From positions 1 to 64,000 of the forward strand of contig CAILCF010000001.1 in assembly GCA_903832635.1 (NCBI GenBank): a stretch of 64,000 bases of DNA, in the 5' to 3' direction. A model generated the notes under the pieces. It was not told the origin of the DNA and ran no database searches. It saw only the letters and a program-made list of their open reading frames with translations. The translations under genes were made by a program, and so were the position numbers. The stretch is from an uncultured bacterium. Its GTDB lineage: Bacteria; Patescibacteriota; Saccharimonadia; Saccharimonadales; Saccharimonadaceae. Shown piece after piece: positions 31,210 to 38,697 of this stretch (position 1 is its first letter; every line of letters starts with the position of its first letter).

Positions 31210-31285
31210 GGGCTCGTAGTGAAGGGGTTATCACGCCTCCCTGTCACGGAGGAGATCGCCGGTTCAAATCCGGTCGAGCCCGCCA
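31210..31285 (+). tRNA. tRNA-Asp(GTC)
   Basis: GGGCTCG...CGAGCCC acceptor; anticodon GTC; encoded CCA. Confidence 0.93.
31267..31285 (+). repeat. tRNA-Asp 3'-end repeat, copy 1
   Basis: aatccggtcgagcccgcca identical to 31462-31480. Confidence 0.95.
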
Positions 31286-31461
31286 ATATAAAATAGTCAC
31301 CTATCTGGTGGCTGTTTTATATTGCTGAGATTTGTATCGAATTTGAATCAGCGATTGTGGTTTGCCAAAGGCAAAGCACAGAATCGCCGGGTCGTGTAGC
31401 GCAGCGCCGCGAAAAAGTGTTTACATTTTTTCGTAAGCAAGCGGAAGAGGCTTTAGACGAT

Positions 31462-31480
31462 AATCCGGTCGAGCCCGCCA
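31462..31480 (+). repeat. tRNA-Asp 3'-end repeat, copy 2
   Basis: Exact 19-bp copy of 31267-31285, followed by a diverged copy of the downstream terminator. Confidence 0.95.
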
Positions 31481-31611
31481 AATATAATAGTTCACCGACT
31501 GGTGGACCTTTTTATTGCTAAGTTTTTTTGAATCAATCCGATAATATTAAGTCAACCTATTTAGACTATAATGCATCAATATTTATTGTAATTATAAGAT
31601 ATAATACTTTT

Positions 31612-36872: not shown

Positions 36873-36892
36873 ATTGATATTATACTACGGTT

Positions 36893-37018
36893 CGGGCAGG
36901 AGTTGGTCACGTTTCGCGACCCCGCGAGTCAGTCAAATTAGCAAAGCTAATTTGTGACATCGCCTTGCGACCCGCAGACTTGCGGGTCTCACCTCCAACC
37001 TCCAAAGATTGACAGTGT
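36893..37018 (-). repeat. Cluster of hairpins 3' of tRNA-Arg
   Basis: GACCCGCA/TGCGGGTC (36969-36988), AAATTAGC/GCTAATTT (36935-36953), GGTCaCG/CGcGACC (36905-36921), ending in a 12/13 match to the tRNA-Arg 3' end. Confidence 0.75.
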
Positions 37019-37034
37019 TCAACTAGCACAAAAG

Positions 37035-37078
37035 ACCATAAGATAAGACCCATCAATCGACGGGTCGTATCTTATGGT
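37035..37078 (-). terminator. Long inverted repeat overlapping tRNA-Arg 3' CCA
   Basis: 17-nt arms (37035-37051 and 37062-37078), 16/17 matched, followed by CTTTTGT on minus strand. Confidence 0.8.
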
Positions 37079-37151
37079 ACCCCGGGCAGGACTTGAACCT
37101 ACAACCTTATCCTTAGGACGGATCTGCTCTATCCAGTTGAGCTACCGAGGC
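37075..37151 (-). tRNA. tRNA-Arg(CCT)
   Basis: Cloverleaf; loop GTCCTAA; encoded CCA. Confidence 0.9.
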
Positions 37152-37686: not shown

Positions 37687-37779
37687 ATTTCTCCTTTGTT
37701 TACTGGTGTTTATTGTAGCAAATAATTTGATTATTTCCTCTACCCTGCAAATAAATTGATTTTGCGATATGATTACATC

Positions 37780-38697
37780 ATGTATATGTCGGAACTAATA
37801 CTTGATTATATTGAACACCTAGAGGTTGAAGGTGGTCGCTCTGCTCATACAGCCGAAAATTATACTTTATATTTAGAACGTTTTATCGAATTTACTAATG
37901 ATATTATCGTGGACAAAATTACTTCAGAAATTATTCGAAAATATAGACTATGGCTAAATCGTTATAAAAATAGCAACGGCGATGAATTATCTACAATTAC
38001 TCAAAGTTACCACTTAATAGCCCTGCGCGGATTTCTTAACTATCTTTCGAAACGTGATATAAAAAGTTTGTCACCTGAAAAAATTGAACTACCAAAAGTA
38101 TCACGTAGACAAGTTACATTTTTAACTTATGATGAAATTGAACAAATATTAGCACAGATTAATACGAATAATAACACCGGGCTGCGTGACCGTGCAATAA
38201 TTGAACTGCTTTTTTCCAGCGGACTTCGTATATCTGAACTGGTTAACCTGAACCGTGATCACATTAATACAAAAAGACACGAATTTACTGTTCGAGGAAA
38301 GGGTCAAAAAGATAGACCAGTTTTTATCAGTGAAAACGCTAGTATTCACATAAATAATTACTTAAAAACACGTTCAGACTCATTGCCTCCCCTATTTATC
38401 AGTTACAGCCGAAATAATGTGCCCGACAATAGTGGAGATTACCGACGGCTTGGCGCCAGAAGCATTCAGCGAATCATTAACATATACACACGACTGGCTG
38501 GTATTACAAAACATGTCAGCCCACATACAATGAGACATAGTTTTGCAACCGACTTACTAATGAATGGAGCTGATATACGAAGCGTTCAAACGATGCTTGG
38601 TCACAGTAGCATTACCACGACTCAAGTATATACCCATGTAACCGACCAACACTTACATGAAGTTTACGAAAAATTTCATAGTGATAAAACTAGTTAA
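37780..38697 (+). CDS. Tyrosine recombinase, XerC/D/XerA-like
   Basis: GLRISELVNL, HTMRHSFATDLL, LGHSSITTTQVYTHV; start set at ATG 37780. Confidence 0.9.
   Translation: MYMSELILDYIEHLEVEGGRSAHTAENYTLYLERFIEFTNDIIVDKITSEIIRKYRLWLNRYKNSNGDELSTITQSYHLIALRGFLNYLSKRDIKSLSPEKIELPKVSRRQVTFLTYDEIEQILAQINTNNNTGLRDRAIIELLFSSGLRISELVNLNRDHINTKRHEFTVRGKGQKDRPVFISENASIHINNYLKTRSDSLPPLFISYSRNNVPDNSGDYRRLGARSIQRIINIYTRLAGITKHVSPHTMRHSFATDLLMNGADIRSVQTMLGHSSITTTQVYTHVTDQHLHEVYEKFHSDKTS

Follow-up and report, generated by a model that had tools for sequence, protein, structure and literature searches.

The window, that is, the whole stretch of 64,000 nucleotides analysed here, belongs to an uncultured member of the Saccharimonadaceae (contig CAILCF010000001.1, assembly GCA_903832635.1). 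Near its middle lies a tRNA-Asp(gtc) gene, followed on the same strand by a short segment that ends in a second copy of the tRNA 3' end (Table 1). The 19 nt of this end, AATCCGGTCGAGCCCGCCA, are identical in both places; the alignment carries on through the terminator and spans about 60 columns, with 85% identity. A simple calculation puts the probability of an exact 19-mer repeat arising by chance within 200 bp at about 1e-9. An initial annotation, made from the sequence alone, had reported this duplication, its continuation into the terminator, the lack of an open reading frame and two strong hairpins, and all four observations are confirmed. Only trivial ORFs (54 aa) overlap the segment. 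The first hairpin, formed by 31350-31356 with 31382-31388, has as its arms the 5' half of the tRNA T-arm in inverted and in direct orientation, a detail missed by that annotation. The feature extends further than had been given, with the unit at 31267-31461 and the original terminator of the host at 31481-31519.

Table 1. Features of the tRNA-Asp and tRNA-Arg(cct) loci, in positions of the window
Feature	Positions	Strand	Basis
Host gene tRNA-Asp(gtc)	31210-31285	+	ARAGORN; empty site in G003
Class A insertion unit, 195 bp	31267-31461	+	Exact indel against the G003 tRNA-Asp locus
Left repeat copy, last 19 nt of tRNA-Asp, part of the inserted unit	31267-31285	+	
Palindromic terminator brought by the unit, arms beginning at CCA	31286-31324	+	Host's own is the right-hand one
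Segment I, inverted copy of the tRNA T-arm	31337-31356	-	Sequence; specificity over 103 units
Apex hairpin, GTGGTTTGCC-AAA-GGCAAAGCAC	31357-31379	.	Sequence, folding
T5', direct copy of the 5' half of the T-arm	31382-31393	+	
Class A structured core	31394-31461	+	Model R1, 89.4 bits at 31389-31466; covariation
Hairpin 1 of the core	31410-31433		
Hairpin 2 of the core	31449-31458		
T3, displaced 3' end of the host tRNA-Asp, right repeat copy	31462-31480	+	
Original host terminator of tRNA-Asp	31481-31519	+	Matches the empty-site terminator in G003
tRNA-Arg(cct), class B host	37075-37151	-	
Class B unit region after tRNA-Arg(cct)	36890-37074	-	
Class B core downstream of tRNA-Arg(cct), starting about 80 nt after the tRNA	36905-36993	-	
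Displaced 3' end of tRNA-Arg, partial, after the class B core	36890-36904	-	

The limits of the inserted unit were set by comparison with a related genome, G003, where the tRNA-Asp locus has the same genes on both sides and differs by an exact 195-bp indel at GGTTCA^AATCC. Within the 19-bp repeat the limits are ambiguous, 31286-31480 being equivalent to 31267-31461. The same comparison identifies the right-hand terminator as the host's, while the left-hand one, ATATAAAATAGTCACC, is borne by the unit. From left to right, the unit consists of a tRNA 3' end, a palindromic terminator, an inverted T-arm (I), an apex hairpin, the direct copy T5' and the core, after which comes the displaced T3. The core itself comprises a GTAG box, a first hairpin, a GCGGAAGAG box and a second hairpin, and it ends in GACGAT exactly at the crossover. 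The unit occupies a fixed point in the T-loop and displaces the original 3' end of the host to the right; the tRNA stays intact because the unit brings a replacement for the last 18-19 nt of the gene.

This segment belongs to a hitherto undescribed family of very small, gene-less insertion units in Saccharibacteria. A search combining BLAST with a covariance model (R1) of the core at 31389-31466 found the core in 26 of the 28 genomes of the genus, with 0-14 copies per genome and six in the window's own genome. Across the order, 87 of 249 genomes have it, representing 60 of 131 genera. Sampled over the phylum, it turned up in no more than 20 of 389 genomes, the majority from the same class, and two copies from other classes (L291, L295) retain the architecture behind a terminator. 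Among named records, exact matches to part of the core come mostly from assemblies of Candidatus Saccharibacteria or of uncultured bacteria, several of them from lakes. One class A core lies in a contig labelled Bacteroidales (L312), probably a mis-binned Saccharibacteria contig. Among 122 placed copies, picked mainly from the best-scoring ones, 103 begin 60-110 nt past the 3' end of a tRNA on the same strand (mean 91.9, sd 6.8; 23 isoacceptors), a fixed distance that cannot be created by the bias of R1. The model derives from copies retrieved with a query that contained a tRNA, and it includes about ten T-arm-like end positions; copies away from tRNAs may be under-detected. Of the remaining placed copies, several are next to a contig end, within masked sequence or on the far side of an inserted island. 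The initial annotation had reasoned that an origin by integration would be undermined if every relative carried the segment at tRNA-Asp and it occurred nowhere else; the comparison came out the opposite way, with an empty site in G003 and the core at tRNAs of 23 isoacceptors. None of the 4227 Rfam models matched the window unit or the class B ends at or above its curated threshold, and the literature searched, with incomplete coverage of subscription papers, yielded no description of such units.

Three features went beyond what had been noticed in the single segment, namely ends tailored to each tRNA, a built-in inverted T-arm, and a covarying core fold common to different tRNAs. To measure the first, T3, I and T5' of each unit were scored against tRNAs representing 23 isoacceptors. 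The strict best match was the unit's own tRNA for T3 in 84 of the 103 units, for I in 72 and for T5' in 51, against about 4.5 expected by chance; three segments per unit are thus tailored to the local tRNA. The cores behave differently, since their sequences group by clade and not by tRNA. Between clades, mean core identity is 0.467 for the same tRNA and 0.473 for other tRNAs; within the genus the values are 0.583 and 0.565 (about 0.58 and 0.57), and within one genome, across tRNAs, 0.596. Old tRNA-specific core lineages were therefore rejected, same-tRNA copies of different clades being no closer, and it follows that the target must be where the arms are acquired or rewritten. In orthologous units at tRNA-Lys and tRNA-Arg(tct) of G000 and G003, I, the apex hairpin and T5' are identical, and the stems have been replaced en bloc.

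The fold of the core is conserved across this diversity. In a hand-drawn structure of 28 cores, 88.3% of the pairs are standard, compared with 75.2% in shuffles, and its covariation score was reached by 0 of 500 shuffles, a test that related sequences can inflate but whose control holds, as slid structures are only 30-62% paired. Helices of 99 distinct cores contain 144 G.T and 32 A.C pairs (74 and 32 without one conserved pair that yields about half of the G.T count), an excess that marks the tRNA-sense strand as the folding strand. The + strand of the window unit likewise folds better than shuffles, with z -2.9 as RNA and z -3.5 as DNA, the - strand giving z -1.7. These predictions would fit RNA or single-stranded DNA alike as the active form. 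In the minimum fold as predicted, T5' and T3 pair with each other around the core and not with I; the T-arm duplex with I would be one of two alternative pairings.

A second, different structured insert of about 90-110 nt, termed class B, ends in GGTCGCGGAACGTGACC at the same T-loop point as class A. It gave 19 matches, one of which (in L039) is doubtful, and its first hairpin covaries when judged by eye. The window holds one class B unit, behind tRNA-Arg(cct) (Table 1).

Occupancy of these sites varies among relatives. The tRNA-Tyr site is clean and empty in the window's own genome and occupied in G003, while Leu(cag) in the own genome retains an 11-bp scar, GATTTATACCA, which looks like the trace of a lost unit. 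Deletion between the 19-nt direct repeats also leaves clean empty sites, so a single locus fits gain or loss, and the genomes compared are species-level drafts in which no recent gain between strains was seen. Stronger evidence for repeated entry comes from stacks and nested ends. At tRNA-Pro of G004, two complete units, first one of class B and then one of class A, are followed by a remnant of class B, and behind each of the three stands tRNA-Pro T3 sequence; the Arg(tcg) and Phe units of G003 have the end of an older core to the right of the newer one. Clear stacks are rare: a scan for two well-preserved T3 copies found them at 3 of 102 loci, which implies that most old ends decay. In other genera, L260, L302 and L267 have two or more class A cores close together and may be further stacks. 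At tRNA-Asn of G007 (L040, 4600-9800), two nearly identical units, both of which have an additional inverted core, enclose a TdeIII-type restriction enzyme and a D12 methyltransferase.

Other mobile elements share these tRNA genes. Large serine recombinases were found in 21 of the genus's 28 genomes, frequently adjoining tRNA 3' ends. At tRNA-Asn, Leu, Lys and Gln, an island is placed between the tRNA and a unit, with the final 7-10 nt of the tRNA in front of the unit's terminator; this acceptor remnant shows that the island entered between tRNA and unit, and that the unit was there first. Such islands had been considered as the source of the core on the hint of G018, where a recombinase abuts tRNA-Asn and a core lies 10 kb away, and were rejected on the position of the acceptor remnant; the unit was not found to be such an island's own end. 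The G018 island in tRNA-Asn (L181, 704-2383 and 5523-6428) codes for a large serine recombinase, the C-terminal end of which overlaps the tRNA, as well as for a reverse transcriptase. A motif like GAAGTACGTCCACTAG lies just before the acceptor remnant, upstream of unit terminators, in L181, L183, L236 and L295; it is probably an attachment half-site of serine-recombinase islands, and is also present in another class of the phylum.

Further candidate sources were examined and set aside. Gene cassettes inside units were rejected, as the genes sit between tRNA and unit or between units (restriction-modification genes in G007, pilins in G027). A reverse transcriptase as driver was discarded, being present in only 14 of the 28 genomes. 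The Rfam LOOT RNA (RF03000) matched with 73 bits at L222, 16083-16196 (- strand), elsewhere in a tRNA-Leu island and not in the unit. A RAYT/REP origin, suggested by the GTAG box and by Y1 genes near tRNA-Met, was also rejected, since the transposase has its own, different palindrome; the core lay within 1.5 kb at only one of eight Y1 loci examined, and that one is the tRNA-Met unit. In the own genome (C4), a RAYT-type Y1 transposase at L035, 6151-6768, has the palindrome TTTAGAAGGACGGACCTTCTAAA on both sides, and this palindrome is also found near several tRNAs.

The units resemble several known systems in part. Islander-type tDNA islands insert in a tRNA gene, which element-borne sequence regenerates, and leave the displaced 3' fragment at the far end (PMC4383910); tRNA 3' fragments are usually read as their footprints (PMC9897764). 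The unit resembles the islands in its regenerated tRNA, displaced 3' fragment and empty site in relatives, and differs in being about 195 bp long and gene-less, with a built-in inverted T-arm and one core whose ends fit 23 isoacceptors. No integrase lies within the element, and the fixed spacing leaves no room for a gene in the 103 units. Large serine recombinase islands likewise target the same tRNA genes and duplicate tRNA 3' ends, although they carry genes, have their own end sequence (e.g., GAAGTACGTCCACTAG) and enter between tRNA and unit. As a rule, known tRNA-integrating elements are tied to one tRNA type through a fixed attachment site.

Among systems acting through folded strands, integrons recombine single-stranded attC sites, and gene-less attC arrays exist (PMC4792948). 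With attC (PMC4792948) the units share conservation of structure over sequence, inverted boxes that can pair on one folded strand, and tandem arrays. In contrast to attC, they have no AAC/GTT crossover triplet, the junction being core/AATCC or similar, following the tRNA; their target is the tRNA T-loop and not attI, the tRNA-sense strand folds, and the core lies between two boxes on one strand. The single tyrosine recombinase detected in the own genome is of the general XerA-like type (37756-38697). In CTX-phi, two inverted attP copies pair on the phage strand and rebuild the target for single-strand integration (PMC5357621). The unit likewise has two inverted target-like copies that, by folding prediction, could pair as in an IMEX attP(+) of this type (PMC5357621), although its target is a tRNA instead of dif, one copy is interrupted by a conserved folded core, and phage genes are lacking. 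As in REP/RAYT systems, an imperfect hairpin has a GTAG-like box at its 5' foot, intergenic copies are numerous and Y1 transposase genes occur in the genus; the units differ in that the own RAYT-type gene is flanked by another palindrome (TTTAGAAGGACGGACCTTCTAAA), with no hairpin shared between these flanks and the dispersed repeats. We know of no REPs built from a tRNA end. None of the families compared combines a shared core with arms tailored to each tRNA.

The reading that we favour, tentatively and at somewhat less than even confidence, is that the units are gene-less, non-autonomous elements that integrate at the T-loop through a folded single strand, with a recombinase acting in trans. 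Because T5' and T3 together are the complement of the inverted T-arm, the folded + strand can rebuild a duplex T-arm. The tRNA-sense strand would fold such that the inverted T-arm pairs with the T-arm halves flanking the core; one strand would thereby yield a duplex copy of the T-arm, leaving the core extruded precisely at the crossover. A trans-acting recombinase, for which the XerA-like protein is a candidate, would then exchange the folded strand with the T-loop of a tRNA gene. New units would land beside the tRNA, and older ones would decay or be deleted. Strand exchange alone leaves the retailoring of the arms to a new tRNA unexplained, and fold-back copying or gene conversion from the target would be needed. 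Against this reading stand the findings that no recombinase is linked to the units and that no unit carries a gene; the viral contigs, phages and plasmids searched contained no match to the unit, so that no vehicle was recognised. The initial annotation had spoken of a classical footprint of site-specific integration, and integration in that classical sense is not established because no recombinase was identified. A bolder version, possible but doubtful, sees in them a novel type of mobile unit that has its ends rewritten from the target whenever it inserts: the small folded core would enter the T-loop of any tRNA gene, and fold-back copying of the 3' end of that tRNA would provide both the repair copy that preserves the tRNA and the tRNA-specific attachment site used in the following round.

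The main rival, which we consider rather unlikely, holds that the core alone is mobile, as a hairpin-type single-strand transposon or an RNA that enters the T-loop, and that fold-back (template-switch) copying of the tRNA 3' end makes the arms. Insertions would survive only when direct-inverted-direct copying leaves an intact tRNA beside the interrupted copy. Mobility of the core alone would explain why arms match the local tRNA while cores track the clade, the direct-inverted-direct layout around two palindromes, the two unrelated cores at one T-loop point, the extra inverted core in L040 and a core that itself has no flanking target duplication. However, the same multi-step repair would be needed at about 100 loci with near-constant spacing, no interrupted T-arm without an inverted arm was recognised at any locus, and the palindrome that goes with the Y1 transposases of these genomes is another one.

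An unlikely alternative to integration through a folded strand is a structured RNA or DNA element with a host function, such as a T-arm decoy or a tRNA-linked regulatory RNA, arising locally through duplication of the tRNA 3' end, its likeness to the tRNA kept by selection or gene conversion and its empty sites representing losses. The strong structural constraint on the core, the same-strand arrangement, the loss-like Leu(cag) site and the Lys and Arg(tct) orthologues of G000 and G003, which keep I, apex and T5' with swapped stems, would all suit such a function. It is harder to reconcile with so patchy a distribution (87 of the order's 249 genomes, and 0-14 copies per genome in a single genus), with a unit behind a strong terminator, with stacked units and nested old ends, and with cores common to unrelated tRNAs.

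It is quite improbable that the units are degenerate scars of ordinary tRNA-integrated islands, be they large serine recombinase or phage elements. A regenerated tRNA with a displaced 3' end is the classical footprint of islands (PMC4383910), and serine-recombinase islands are common at the same tRNAs. Scars would not share a folded core, spacing and tailored arms at 103 loci; the acceptor remnant before the unit's terminator places the islands between tRNA and unit; and units are frequent where no large serine recombinase was found, as in G002 (10 copies) and G027 (11 copies). The initial annotation had left a choice among a remnant scar, a mini-element and a pseudo-tRNA: empty sites, 23 isoacceptors and stacks favour the mini-element, and the architecture common to about 100 loci makes a scar unlikely. 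A tRNA intron or pseudo-tRNA, with the core spliced from the T-loop of a second tRNA copy, is hardly tenable: the T-loop position is exact, the fold compact, and introns at unusual positions are described for archaeal tRNAs (PMC4090602), but only the tRNA 3' half lies downstream, its 3' end decayed in many copies, the upstream tRNA is already complete, and no Rfam intron or ribozyme family matches.

Our comparative analysis thus documents one small folded core at the same point of tRNAs of 23 isoacceptors, with ends matching each tRNA. If these ends are rewritten at insertion, a minimal element could target essential genes harmlessly. The family adds a large, uncharted group of structured nucleic acids to Saccharibacteria, and it could account for tRNA 3'-end fragments that are usually dismissed as island scars.
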